A stretch of 64,000 nucleotides of DNA from Hyphomonas sp. (GTDB lineage: Bacteria; Pseudomonadota; Alphaproteobacteria; Caulobacterales; Hyphomonadaceae). The stretch spans positions 62,001 to 126,000 of the forward strand of contig NZ_PNMA01000003.1 of assembly GCF_013823385.1 (NCBI RefSeq). The letters are read 5' to 3'. This document shows positions 23,202-59,106 of the stretch, piece after piece. The notes below the pieces were generated by a model, which searched no databases, was not told where the DNA came from, and saw nothing but the letters and a program-made list of their open reading frames with translations. Within the stretch, counting starts at the first letter, position 1, and each line of letters opens with the position of its first letter. A program made the position numbers and the translations under genes.

Positions 23202-23268
23202 TGGCCAAGGGTGTCCTGCATCTGTCCGAAACTGTCCGGAAGTGTCCGGATTTGTCCATCGGGTGTCA
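23202..23268. repeat. Helically phased TGTCC array A
   Basis: TGTCC occurs at 23212, 23223, 23233, 23243 and 23253, followed by TGTCA at 23264: spacings 11, 10, 10, 10, 11. A one-mismatch unit (TGGCC) sits at 23202, in phase. The 5-6 bases between units differ, so these are not simple tandem copies. It lies in the 250-bp gap between the divergent acetyl-CoA hydrolase (start 23165) and nitronate monooxygenase-like (start 23417) genes. Same architecture as arrays B and C. Confidence 0.85.
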
Positions 23269-46219: not shown

Positions 46220-47035
46220 ATGAAAACGACCTTTCTCAAAGCCTGCGCCGTCGCCGCTCTGGCGCTCACCATCGCCGGTTCGGCCAGCGCCCACCGCGCC
46301 TGGATGTTGCCGTCCTCCTTCACCCTCTCGGGTGAAAACCAGTGGGTGACGGTCGACGGCGCCATCTCCAACAACCTCTTCTATCCCAACCACCACGCCA
46401 TGAACCTCGATACGGTCACCGTGTTCGGCCCCGATGGCAAACCGGTGGAAGCGCAGAACAAGGCTTCGGGCAAATACCGCTCGGTCTTCGATATCGCGCT
46501 GGAGAAGGAAGGCACCTACCGCATCTCCTCCGGCGGCGCGGGCTATATGGCCAGCTGGGAAGAAGGCGGCGAGCGCAAGCGCTGGCGCGGCACGGCAGAG
46601 ACGCTGAAATCGGAAGGCATCGAAGGCAAGCCCGGTGTCCAGCTGTCCGGCAATGTGCGCCGTATCGAAACCTTCGTCACCCTCGGCTCGCCCACAACCA
46701 CGGTCTTCGCCACCGAGGGCACAGGTCTTGAGCTGAAACCGGTCACCCATCCCAACGATGTGTTTGCCGGCGAGGAAGTCTCCTTCCAGCTGCTCCTCGA
46801 TGGCAAGCCCGCCCAGGGCGTCGAGGTAGACATCATTCGTGGCAGCGACCGCTACCGCGATTCCGAAGATGGCCTGAAGCTCACTACGGACGCCGCCGGC
46901 ACGATCAAATTCACCCCGGAAGAAGCGGGCGCCTACTGGCTAAGCGCAGACAGTGAAGGCAAGGGCCTGCTGAACGGCAAGGAAATCCCGGTCCGCGCCA
47001 GCTATGTCTTCACCTTCGAGGCCCTGCCTCTTTGA
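46220..47035 (+). CDS. DUF4198 periplasmic protein
   Basis: 271-residue exported protein. A signal peptide ends near AHRAW (SASA/HR), giving a mature N-terminus that starts with His, a feature of this family that may bind metal. The DUF4198 domain has LPSSFTLSGENQWVTVDGAISN (near 31-52, in part) and an Ig-like C-terminal half, with a YHRD-like acidic end. DUF4198 proteins are found in nickel/cobalt and iron-related operons. Here it sits between DUF2271 and ApbE, overlapping the latter's start by 4 nt. Confidence 0.82.
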   Translation: MKTTFLKACAVAALALTIAGSASAHRAWMLPSSFTLSGENQWVTVDGAISNNLFYPNHHAMNLDTVTVFGPDGKPVEAQNKASGKYRSVFDIALEKEGTYRISSGGAGYMASWEEGGERKRWRGTAETLKSEGIEGKPGVQLSGNVRRIETFVTLGSPTTTVFATEGTGLELKPVTHPNDVFAGEEVSFQLLLDGKPAQGVEVDIIRGSDRYRDSEDGLKLTTDAAGTIKFTPEEAGAYWLSADSEGKGLLNGKEIPVRASYVFTFEALPL

Positions 47036-48006
47036 GCGAAGTCCGCCTTCTCATTCCAGACGATTTCGGCCGCGGCGATATCACGCCGCGGCCGGATGCC
47101 TTTATGGGCCTGCGCCTTCAGGGCCAGACCATGGGCACAAGCTGGTCGGCGAGCTGGTGCGCTGCGCCGGGCCTGCGGGAAGAAACGGTGCTGCAGGCGC
47201 TCGAAGCGGGCTTTGCCCGCATGATTGCCTCGATGAGCCCGTGGGAGGCCTCCTCGCTGATCTCGCGCTATAACCGGCTACCCCCCGGCGAGAGCCTCGC
47301 CATCGACGCTCCGTTTGCGGAAGTCATGGCCCTTGCACTGGAAGTCGCGCGGGCAAGCGGCGGCGCGCTTGATCCCTGCCTCGGCGGCGAAGTCATGCGC
47401 CGGGGCTTTGGCCCCGCAGGCATCGGCGCCGGGGAAGAGGGCAGGGCGCATGGCCCCGCCATCTGGGAACAGCTCCTGCCCGAACCTGCCTGCCTCTACC
47501 AGCCGGGCGGCGTGACCCTCGATCTCAACGCCGTCGCAAAGGGCTACGCGGTGGACCAGATGGCCGCCACGCTGGAGCGCTTCGGCGTCACCCAATACCT
47601 GGTCGAGATCGGCGGCGAGTTCGCCGGGCGGGGCGTCAAGCCGGACCGGTCTCCCTGGTGGGTTGATCTGGAAAACCCGTCACCGGAAGAGGCGCCCTGG
47701 CGGCTTGCCCTGGTTGCCCATGGCGTGGCCACTTCTGGCGATTATCGTCAGCAGATTGTCCGGGATTGTCACAAACTGTCCCATATTGTCCCCGCTCTGT
47801 CCCGAACCTGCCGGTTCGGGGATCTGGCAAGTCTCTCTGTGATCCACGAAACCTGCGCCCTGGCAGACGCCTGGGCCACGGCCCTCTTCGCCATGGGGGA
47901 TGCGGAGGGGCTTGCCCTCGCAGACCGTCTCGGCCTCGCTGTCCTCGCCCAGTACCGCAACGCGCCCGCCCGTGCCTCCACCCGCCTCATTAGCTGGCAA
48001 GACTGA
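47032..48006 (+). CDS. apbE: FAD:protein FMN transferase, ApbE-like, carrying a phased repeat array
   Basis: 324-residue ApbE-family protein that would transfer FMN from FAD to the Thr of the DUF2271 protein. Family motifs include QGTMGTSW-like (here QTMGTSWSA), DLNAVAKGYAVDQ near 165-177, VEIGGE near 192, VATSGDY near 230 and the Mg2+ site ADAWATALF (Asp and Thr). The segment that normally reads SHxIDPxTG is altered to SHIVPALSRT exactly where the TGTCC array B lies (47746-47802). The catalytic metal residues remain. Start is a TTG overlapping the DUF4198 stop. No signal peptide is seen, unlike most ApbE proteins. Confidence 0.85.
   Translation: MSEVRLLIPDDFGRGDITPRPDAFMGLRLQGQTMGTSWSASWCAAPGLREETVLQALEAGFARMIASMSPWEASSLISRYNRLPPGESLAIDAPFAEVMALALEVARASGGALDPCLGGEVMRRGFGPAGIGAGEEGRAHGPAIWEQLLPEPACLYQPGGVTLDLNAVAKGYAVDQMAATLERFGVTQYLVEIGGEFAGRGVKPDRSPWWVDLENPSPEEAPWRLALVAHGVATSGDYRQQIVRDCHKLSHIVPALSRTCRFGDLASLSVIHETCALADAWATALFAMGDAEGLALADRLGLAVLAQYRNAPARASTRLISWQD
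47746..47802. repeat. Helically phased TGTCC array B, inside apbE
   Basis: TGTCC occurs at 47757, 47777, 47787 and 47798, and TGTCA at 47767; CGTCA at 47746 is in phase. Spacings are 11, 10, 10, 10, 11. Weaker units (TGCCC at 47715, TGGCC at 47726) extend the phase leftward. Intervening bases differ between units. The array covers the codons that encode the poorly conserved SHIVPALSRT stretch of ApbE. Confidence 0.85.
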
Positions 48007-57423: not shown

Positions 57424-59106
57424 ATGGCATCGTCAGAACTGCAGAAACGGGGGCGCCCCCAAAGCCCCCTGAAACGCTGGAGCGCGGCTGCGAAAGCCGC
57501 GTCAGCACAGGTGTTCCTGTTGCAGATGACCGGGCTTCTGGCCTGGGTGGGGATTGCGTTCGGCATCGGCTATGGGGTGGACAATTTGTCCGCCGGCGCG
57601 CCGGCCGGAGGACTGCTGGCCCTGGCAGCCGGCGCCGCGCTGGTGCGGGCGCTGGCGGGATGGTTGCATGACGGCGCGGCGGCACGCGCAGGGATTGCGA
57701 TTGTGGCCGCAGCGCGCGGCGAGATCTTTCAGACGCTGAAGGCGCGCGGCGCCGGGATGCTGGAAGGCGCTGGCGCGGGCATGCGCACATCGCAGGTGAT
57801 CGACCGCACCGCGAAGCTTTCGGGCTATGCCGCGCGCTGGGTGCCGGGGCAGCGGATGGCGCTGGCCGGGCCGGTGATCGTGCTGGCGGCGGTGGCGACG
57901 CAGAGCTGGCTGTCGGCGGCGCTGCTGCTGGTTTCGGTGCTGGTGTTGCCGGCGTTCATCTGGCTGACGCTGAGCGAAGTGACGGCGGTGGCGCGGGCGC
58001 AGCAGACATCGCTGGATCAGCTATCGGGCGCGTTCCAGACGCGGGCGGCGCAGGCGGGCATCATCCGGGCGTTCCGGGCGGTGACGCGGGAGACGGCAGC
58101 ACTGGCGGAGGCGTCCTCAGACCTCCGTAGCCGGACGATGAAGGTGTTGCGGGTGGCGTTCCTTTCCACGGCGGTGCTGGAGTTCTTTGCCTCGGTCTCC
58201 GTGGCGATGGTGGCGGTGTATGTGGGGTTCAAGCTGCTGGGCGTGTTTCCGTTTGCGACCGGGGAGACGCTGACGCTGGCCGAAGGGATGACGATCCTGA
58301 TCCTGGTGCCGGAATTCTTTGCGCCGATCCGCAAACTGTCGGCGCTGCACCACGACCGGGCCGACGGAACGGCGGCGGCGGGGTTTCTGGGCGACTGGCT
58401 GGACGAAGCGGAGGCGCGGCCCCTGCCTGCGCGGCTGCCGGGACGGGGGGCGGCGCCGGTGATCGTGTTTCAGGATGTGTCGGTGGCGTTCGGCAATGGC
58501 GCCGGGCTGGGCGGGGTGAGCTTTACGGCGCGGCCGGGAGAGATGGTGGCGCTGACCGGGCCATCGGGTGTGGGCAAGACGACGCTGCTGAAACTGCTGC
58601 TGGGGCAAGGCGTTACGGCGGGCGGCGAGGTGCGGGTAGATGGCGCGGCGCTGGCGCCGGGGGATAGCCTGGCGGAGCGCGCGACCTGGATCAGCCAGAC
58701 GCCGTGGATGATCGAGGGGAGTGTCGCAGACAATCTGCGGCTGGCGGCGCCGGAGGCGGGGGAGGCGGAGCTGCGCGCGGCGCTGGTGGCGGTGGGGCTG
58801 GCGGAAGCCGGGGAGGCTGACGCGCTGCTGGGGCGGCAGCTGGGCCGGGGCGGCAGCGGGCTTTCGGGCGGGCAGCGGCAGCGGATCGGGCTGGCACGCG
58901 TGATCCTGCGGGGCTCGGGCCTCTTGCTTCTGGACGAGCCGACCGCGCACCTCGACGAGGGGGCAGAAGCGGACTTTATCCGGACACTTCGGGACATTTC
59001 CCGGACAAGGACGGTCATTCTGGGGACACATTCGGACAGTTTGCGCACAGCCTGTGACAGCGTGGTCGATCTGGCCGCCCATCGGCGGGAGGCGGCGCCA
59101 TGCTGA
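57424..59106 (+). CDS. cydD: CydD-like ABC exporter subunit, carrying a phased repeat array at its 3' end
   Basis: 560-residue fused membrane/ATPase half-transporter. Six helices in the N-terminal 320 residues are followed by an ABC ATPase: Walker A GPSGVGKTTLL near 379, signature LSGGQRQRIGLARV near 481-494, Walker B LLLLDEPTAHLDEG. With CydC it forms the CydDC glutathione/cysteine (and heme-related) exporter needed for cytochrome bd assembly, in keeping with cydABX next door. The last ~45 codons contain array C (58971-59059). Start codon at 57424, weak ribosome binding site. Confidence 0.93.
   Translation: MASSELQKRGRPQSPLKRWSAAAKAASAQVFLLQMTGLLAWVGIAFGIGYGVDNLSAGAPAGGLLALAAGAALVRALAGWLHDGAAARAGIAIVAAARGEIFQTLKARGAGMLEGAGAGMRTSQVIDRTAKLSGYAARWVPGQRMALAGPVIVLAAVATQSWLSAALLLVSVLVLPAFIWLTLSEVTAVARAQQTSLDQLSGAFQTRAAQAGIIRAFRAVTRETAALAEASSDLRSRTMKVLRVAFLSTAVLEFFASVSVAMVAVYVGFKLLGVFPFATGETLTLAEGMTILILVPEFFAPIRKLSALHHDRADGTAAAGFLGDWLDEAEARPLPARLPGRGAAPVIVFQDVSVAFGNGAGLGGVSFTARPGEMVALTGPSGVGKTTLLKLLLGQGVTAGGEVRVDGAALAPGDSLAERATWISQTPWMIEGSVADNLRLAAPEAGEAELRAALVAVGLAEAGEADALLGRQLGRGGSGLSGGQRQRIGLARVILRGSGLLLLDEPTAHLDEGAEADFIRTLRDISRTRTVILGTHSDSLRTACDSVVDLAAHRREAAPC
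58971..59059. repeat. Helically phased GGACA (TGTCC complement) array C, inside cydD
   Basis: On the plus strand GGACA or one-mismatch forms begin at 58971, 58982, 58992, 59003, 59013, 59024, 59034, 59045 and 59055. Spacings are 11,10,11,10,11,10,11,10, i.e. exactly 10.5 bp on average over eight turns. Exact GGACA occurs at 58982, 58992, 59003, 59024 and 59034. The 5-6 bases between units vary. The array overlaps the C-terminal codons of cydD, after Walker B. Confidence 0.9.

Follow-up and report, generated by a model that had tools for sequence, protein, structure and literature searches.

Helically phased GGACA arrays in a clade of Hyphomonas genomes, putative platforms for a DNA-binding protein

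The genomes of one clade within the genus Hyphomonas carry a class of DNA arrays built from the word GGACA, which is repeated in direct orientation about once per turn of the helix. This class of arrays is real, unexpected and conserved, and it is new to our knowledge. The arrays consist of 3 to 10 units and number about 70 per genome, an estimate made from the arrays sampled in two genomes, G000 and G015. On balance, we favour the reading that they are platforms for a protein that would oligomerise head to tail and have a dispensable role at the level of the chromosome. Among the papers listed by a literature search that took in few subscription journals, none describes such arrays, and words beginning with GGACA were absent from the main texts of PMC6650430 and PMC7200025, a result that does not extend to words holding GGACA inside. 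Budding is studied in H. neptunium as a model organism, as is its chromosome segregation, which proceeds in two steps and is unusual (PMC6650430).

Arrays of the window

The window, that is, the whole stretch of 64,000 nucleotides that was analysed, contains the following arrays and host genes:

58971..59059, + strand: nine-unit phased GGACA array inside cydD, characterised by its unit positions and by synonymous shuffles
57424..59106, + strand: cydD, host of the nine-unit array (open reading frame; NCBIfam TIGR02857, 511 bits, cut-off 435)
47757..47802, - strand: second array, four exact GGACA units with spacings of 11, 10 and 20, within the ApbE-like gene of the + strand
47032..48006, + strand: ApbE-like gene (FAD:protein FMN transferase), host of the second array; its sole NCBIfam match is PRK10461 ApbE (E 2.7e-37), at 128 bits below the model cut-off of 498
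23212..23257, - strand: third array, five GGACA units with spacings of 10, 10, 10 and 11, between divergent genes according to our own gene calls; an alternative longer start would place it within an ORF of 671 aa

The array in cydD had been described in a sequence-only reading, and its nine units were all found again at the same positions: GGACT at 58971, GGACA at 58982, 58992 and 59003, GGTCA at 59013, GGACA at 59024 and 59034, GCACA at 59045 and TGACA at 59055. Five units are exact and four (GGACT, GGTCA, GCACA and TGACA) have one mismatch, with spacings of 11, 10, 11, 10, 11, 10, 11 and 10 bp. The assignment of the host gene to cydD was also correct, as TIGR02857 matched well above its cut-off. 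That reading had further held that such an alignment would be very unlikely to arise by chance, and the shuffle control agreed: when the codons of cydD were permuted among synonymous positions (n = 2000), the chain score of 15 of the array was reached by none of the shuffles, whose maximum was 11. TRF gave no tandem-repeat row at the cydD array.

Genome-wide family and helical phase

The sequence-only reading had described one element, that in cydD. This element belongs to a much larger family within one clade. In G000, the genome of the window (4.18 Mb in 172 contigs), a scan for an excess of arrays with the pattern GGACA-N5/6-GGACA-N5/6-GGACA returned 215 matches (116 + 99), against none (0 + 0) for the reversed pattern and a rough chance expectation of 0.02-0.05.

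The distances between pairs of GGACA in G000 and G015 cluster at 10/11, 20/21, 30-32, 40-42, 51-52 and 61-63 bp, and the gaps between these values are near-empty. This comb was obtained from 229 kb of G000, where one locus overlaps another and was counted twice, and from 586 kb of G015; the stretches had been chosen as array-bearing in most cases for G000 and in 20 of 40 for G015. A total of 33 arrays with 166 units was sampled in G000, and 25 arrays with 117 units in G015; adjacent units were spaced by 10 rather than 11 bases in 108 versus 25 cases in the former genome and in 77 versus 15 in the latter.

Spacers vary within most arrays, while the cores are kept. The commonest spacers of ten-base units in G000 were AATCC (29 of 108), GTTTC (9) and CTTCC (9); those of G015 were more mixed, with GATCA in 6 of 77, AATCC in 5 and five others in 4 each. 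Each species has its own dialect in the base that precedes GGACA: within ten-base spacers, G000 had C in 81 of 108 cases, and G015 had G or A in 50 of 77. Outside their exact units, the arrays run on in phase as near-matches, mainly GGTCA and TGACA.

Samples of 400 kb were also searched for phased 5-mers. GGACA formed 16 pairs versus 2.3 expected in G015, in a sample lying mostly between the listed arrays. The best phased words gave 5 pairs versus 0.7 expected in G043, a genome poor in arrays, and 4 versus 0.3 in the outgroup G018, and no word in these two samples was phased as strongly as GGACA in G015.

Distribution of the arrays

Among the 42 Hyphomonas genomes scanned, four were rich in arrays, with 215 (G000), 203 (G022), 188 (G015, a closed genome in a single contig of 3,705,021 bases) and 129 (G042) three-unit matches. 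Three sister genomes were poor in arrays, with 6 (G043), 4 (G052) and 0 (G046) matches. Any match at all was found in 7 of the 42 genomes, the seventh being G002 with a single match, and the other 35 had none. Of 398 evenly sampled genomes of the order, 24 had a match, with a maximum of 2 outside the clade; in an even sample of 385 genomes of the class, 21 had a match, with a maximum of 3 outside the clade, and the reversed-pattern control reached 30 matches in G585 and 16 in G532.

The closest relatives of the CydD protein were those of H. polymorpha PS728 (L031, 89%), of the metagenome assembly HGW-Alphaproteobacteria-18 (L032, 73%) and of Hyphomonas sp. 34-62-18 (L033, 83%, partial), and they place the host of the window in the genus Hyphomonas.

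Origin and decay

The gene ispDF, whose product is present in 42 of the 42 Hyphomonas genomes, allowed the origin of one array to be traced. A tree of this single gene was built from the 30 genomes with a returned locus, after the array columns had been taken out. The seven clade genomes were grouped with a support of 100; the array-free G046 was placed with G000 and G042 (97, 95), the array-poor G052 with G015 and G022 (94, 100), and G043 was the first branch (92). The branch of G046 was long (0.166 versus 0.030 for G000 and 0.049 for G042), as if its substitution rate were raised.

At the ispDF site three phased units were present in six of the seven clade genomes, and G046 had 0 of 3. The array was absent from the 23 outgroups, in which the length was unchanged except for one outgroup with an extra codon. 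Because the outgroups are array-free at constant length, the array was made in place by substitution, with changes of amino acids.

Insertion or deletion also occurs at array sites: at the intergenic site L143, G000 exceeds G043 in length by about 64 bases, and two arrays also differ by insertion or deletion between G000 and G015 (L008 and L012 versus L129). Near 3940-4060 of L129 (G015), a short tandem run of the GATCAGGCCC type adjoins an array and is absent from G000.

For the comparison of orthologous sites, 93 arrays were collected. The few arrays of the array-poor genomes lie mostly at sites that carry an array in other species (4 of 6 in G043 and 3 of 4 in G052, 7 of 10 in all), and the outgroup G018 had 0 units at the two array sites that could be aligned. 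The common ancestor therefore had arrays, which have eroded at least in G052 and in G046, whose sequence was examined at the ispDF site alone, and probably in G043.

Conservation of cores and synonymous sites

In orthologous arrays, cores are better conserved than spacers. In these comparisons most pairs had been chosen with arrays at both sites, so that the figures of core conservation are inflated: from G042 to G015 (six orthologous arrays) 21 of 22 units were kept, with an identity of 0.99 in the core, 0.72 in the spacer and 0.77-0.86 in the flanks; from G015 to G000 (seven arrays) identity was 0.96 in the core and 0.63 in the spacer, with 25 of 28 units kept. Against this, array units turn over between species: from G000 to G015 27 of 38 units were kept, core 0.87 and spacer 0.61; from G015 to G042 21 of 30 units, core 0.79 (not above the flanks) and spacer 0.57; and from G000 to G042 8 of 11 units, core 0.78.

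L031 and L032, a less biased comparison, were chosen by CydD homology and not by their arrays. Both kept 9 of 9 units, with a core identity of 1.00 and a spacer identity of 0.95 and 0.84, respectively, the spacers being conserved as much as the flanks or more. The five exact units of the cydD array were all kept in L031 and L032, and one of them in L033; the four units of the second array, in the ApbE-like gene, were all kept in L031 and L032.

Synonymous constraint was assessed as the proportion of identical codons at positions with the same amino acid, inside the array versus the rest of the gene, with one-sided p values uncorrected for multiplicity. For the ApbE-like gene the proportions were 14/14 versus 109/161 in L031 (p = 0.006) and 12/13 versus 136/237 in L032 (p = 0.009). 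For cydD they were 21/27 versus 194/370 in L032 (p = 0.008) and 24/27 versus 338/454 in L031 (p = 0.065, not significant), and in L033, where the array has eroded, 14/22 versus 158/277 (p = 0.36). Two array-free distant relatives showed no excess of synonymous identity at the array region. The conservation in relatives that the sequence-only reading called for is thus found in part: there is a synonymous excess in L032 for both genes and in L031 for the ApbE-like gene, but cydD of L031 falls short of significance and the phase is eroded in L033. Its view that the array is not a duplicated tandem repeat, but was built base by base on one face of the helix, is upheld by the distance comb, the in-place origin at ispDF and the synonymous constraint.

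Placement on the chromosome

Genes were called with our own simple caller based on codon usage, which is non-standard and whose coding scores may be lowered by the arrays themselves. By these calls, 35 of 59 arrays in the sampled sequence of G000 and G015 were intergenic, 21 intragenic and 3 across a gene edge, while intergenic gaps of at least 30 bases made up 13.9% of a 462-kb background lying mostly between the listed arrays. Compared with the expectation by length, intergenic arrays numbered 20 versus 22.8 in tandem gaps, 9 versus 1.8 in convergent gaps (a class with only 16 members in the background) and 6 versus 10.4 in divergent gaps. In tandem gaps, 16 of the 20 arrays were closer to the upstream stop than to the downstream start (medians of 51 versus 118.5 bp). 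Orientation relative to the genes was mixed: 14 intragenic arrays run with the gene and 7 against it, the corresponding counts for tandem gaps being 6 and 14. Arrays avoid promoters and use both strands. Host or neighbour genes identified by family search include ispDF, trmD, rsmE, thiL, priA, ftsZ, lpxC, recR, cydD and the ApbE-like gene.

For the 54 arrays of G015 with four units at the spacing searched, the coefficient of variation of the gaps was 1.02 versus a random mean of 0.98, and the largest gap was 325 kb. Domains of + and - strand arrays in this genome had been suggested among the matches first listed, but they were removed by the listing of four-unit arrays and by permutation: the two-arc strand polarity of these 54 longer arrays was 14 versus a permuted mean of 16.9, with the origin not located, and no replichore bias was found.

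Proposed mechanism

According to the explanation that we prefer, to which taken as a whole we incline, if narrowly, the arrays would be platforms to which a single DNA-binding protein attaches in a sequence-specific manner. A protein presumably reads the arrays and, by analogy with binding of the ArcA and BldC types, would oligomerise head to tail, one monomer being added per helical turn, because the direct units recur once per turn. The 3-10 GGACA units on one face would nucleate a short nucleoprotein filament, which the weaker end units GGTCA and TGACA would allow to extend. Its job would lie at the level of the chromosome, as nucleoid anchoring, bridging or other DNA handling, and not in local promoter control; this structural role would be independent of position and strand, since promoters are avoided, both strands are used and placement is random. 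The reader protein would be dispensable because the arrays decay in the sister lineages, which seem to have lost it before their arrays eroded. Several points count against the platform model: the candidates examined yielded no reader; the 21 intragenic arrays of 59 would be costly for a dispensable system; units turn over between species; the constraint on cydD of L031 falls short of significance, and the spacers of L031 and L032 are no less conserved than the flanks; and placement in G015 is no more regular than random, so that there is no architectural spacing in support of a nucleoid role.

A fuller version is put forward tentatively, with a probability that we place a little below even. 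In it, the arrays would be an undescribed chromosomal code specific to this clade, about 70 of them per genome assembling a filament-forming nucleoid or DNA-handling protein; they would have been written into genes by selection strong enough to alter proteins, the dialect of each species would evolve together with the reader, and in sister lineages the arrays would have eroded after the reader was lost.

The strict helical phase across the genome should make the reader protein directly fishable with an array, and the three array-poor or array-free sister genomes are natural losses for comparison. Should the reader serve to organise or handle the chromosome, the arrays would represent a dispersed binding code of a new type; should they serve gene transfer, they would act as a transfer signal, and we know of no such signal in this group.

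Alternative explanations

The arrays could instead be transfer signals kept by molecular drive, similar to the DNA uptake sequences (DUS) of Neisseriaceae, better arrays leading to preferential uptake, packaging or transfer followed by recombination and spreading at permissive sites in per-species dialects. The use of both strands, the permissive intergenic and 3' positions, the in-place origin at ispDF, the dialects and the decay after loss all resemble the DUS of Neisseria, which are likewise genome-wide, at permissive sites and different among species (PMC3630211). DUS are, however, single short words in 2245-5918 copies (PMC3630211), whereas the arrays are multi-unit and phased and, at an estimated 70 or so per genome, far less numerous. 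The machinery does not track the arrays either. Among ten genomes, ComEC (PF03772) had no match in the array-rich, closed G015 but had matches in the array-poor G043 and G046; the HK97 capsid (PF05065) was absent from the array-rich G015 and G042 but present in the array-poor G043 and, as a partial match, in G046, although G000 and G022, both rich in arrays, carry this gene. We therefore regard this explanation as unlikely. The sequence-only reading had proposed a protein array on one face of the DNA with a nucleoid, segregation, packaging or uptake role. The protein array remains the best inference, but the distribution of the arrays agrees neither with an HK97-type capsid machine for packaging nor with uptake of the ComEC type.

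Operators of a response regulator of the OmpR/PhoB type with a large regulon, which bind as direct repeats about one helical turn apart, would account for the unit size, the direct orientation and the degenerate end units, and the distance comb holds the direct repeats of 10-11 bp expected of them. ArcA of E. coli, a member of this family, binds sites of two to five direct repeats of differing strength, mostly 11 bp from centre to centre (PMC3798270). ArcA sites serve transcription; in contrast, the arrays have 3-10 units, favour 10 bp over 11, are enriched in convergent gaps and at 3' ends and depleted in divergent gaps, and in 21 of 59 cases are intragenic. Moreover, the arrays of tandem gaps lie closer to stops than to starts (16 of 20), their orientation to genes is mixed, and the CtrA motif of H. 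neptunium is a different one, TTAA-N7-TTAAC (PMC7200025). A regulon of this kind has, in our view, a rather low probability. The binding mode that we propose also resembles that of the winged-helix proteins BldC, RdfS and Xis, which bind direct repeats of variable number asymmetrically and head to tail, BldC being able to bind with one turn between molecules (PMC5859096, PMC11963761). BldC recognises repeats of 9 bp that include an AT-rich part, and RdfS lacks a consensus motif (PMC5859096, PMC11963761), whereas the arrays have a strict GGACA core.

A third explanation, which we consider improbable, is that the arrays label the own DNA for a nuclease-like defence protein, or sequester a harmful free protein by titration. 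Such systems are often gained and lost, and the gain restricted to one clade, the decay in sister genomes and the seeming irrelevance of position and strand would agree with them; against them, neighbouring longer arrays of G015 (54 in all) are, with their random spacing, as much as 325 kb apart.

Proteins such as Noc, SlmA, MatP (with matS) and the reader of KOPS each have tens of copies of their site scattered over the chromosome, as single sites patterned from origin to terminus. The arrays differ from these in being multi-unit and in showing neither polarity nor patterning among the 54 longer arrays of G015. REP and BIME elements are interspersed and mostly intergenic. REPs are palindromic and copied (PMC12306157), whereas the arrays consist of phased units in direct orientation and, at ispDF, the single site traced, arose in place. 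The identical or palindromic copies that define REPs, MITEs and tandem repeats were not found, given that spacers vary and the ispDF array was made by substitution, with the exception of one G022 array of identical units.

Non-functional repeats, that is, drifting 10-bp units produced by slippage, a miniature mobile element or biased mutation, would fit this G022 array, which contains exact tandem copies of GGACAGATCA, and the palindromic repeats adjoining three of the four G022 contig-start arrays examined, but they are disfavoured as very improbable by spacers that differ within most arrays while the cores are kept, by the origin of the ispDF array through substitution at constant length, by the synonymous constraint and by a comb with 11 besides 10.

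Candidate readers and other observations

A protein of about 400 aa combining a helix-turn-helix domain (HTH_17) with citrate synthase was first found in exactly the four array-rich genomes among the seven of the clade, but a protein search then found it in the array-poor G043 and in many others. Both HTH_17 matches of G015 also occur in array-poor genomes, and diverged readers below the search threshold could escape. The coding regions at G000:C24:40130-42370 and G015:C1:3589557-3591802 form a divergent citrate-synthase-like pair, one member with an N-terminal HTH_17-like domain, that is patchy across Hyphomonas. The phage regulator family phrog_36, with sigma region 4, was uninformative, having matches in 42 of 42 genomes and 14 of 14 controls, and its two top places were sigma-factor-like proteins. 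The neighbours of 11 long arrays, inspected with autoregulation in mind, included no obvious reader; ftsZ, lpxC and recR were among them by family search. G015 lacks both PF05065 and PF03772, and G000, G022, G043, G046 (with the capsid partial) and G018 have both.

The arrays at contig ends of G022 were considered as ends of mobile elements, three of four lying beside palindromic repeats, but this sample had been picked at contig ends and the idea was discarded. At contig starts of G022 and G042 (L420-L424 and L434), interspersed palindromic repeats with the arms CCCTCCCCAT..ATGGGGAGGG and GTTGGAGTTTTT were observed, several of which adjoin arrays.

In viral contigs, four GGACA units at 10 bp were found in at least 120 stretches, and a full scan for the reversed ACAGG gave 38, GGACA thus being at least three times commoner. 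No link between these viral arrays and Hyphomonas was found. Within 80 viral loci (L241-L320), some arrays have a gene for terminase, portal, a late regulator or a PrimPol/RepA-type protein as a neighbour, and many are flanked by no seed gene. In one group of viral contigs, the arrays form divergent pairs within PrimPol/AAA_25 (RepA-type) genes or next to them, and in a few other contigs arrays are flanked by a late-regulator-like gene on one side and by that of the small terminase subunit on the other.
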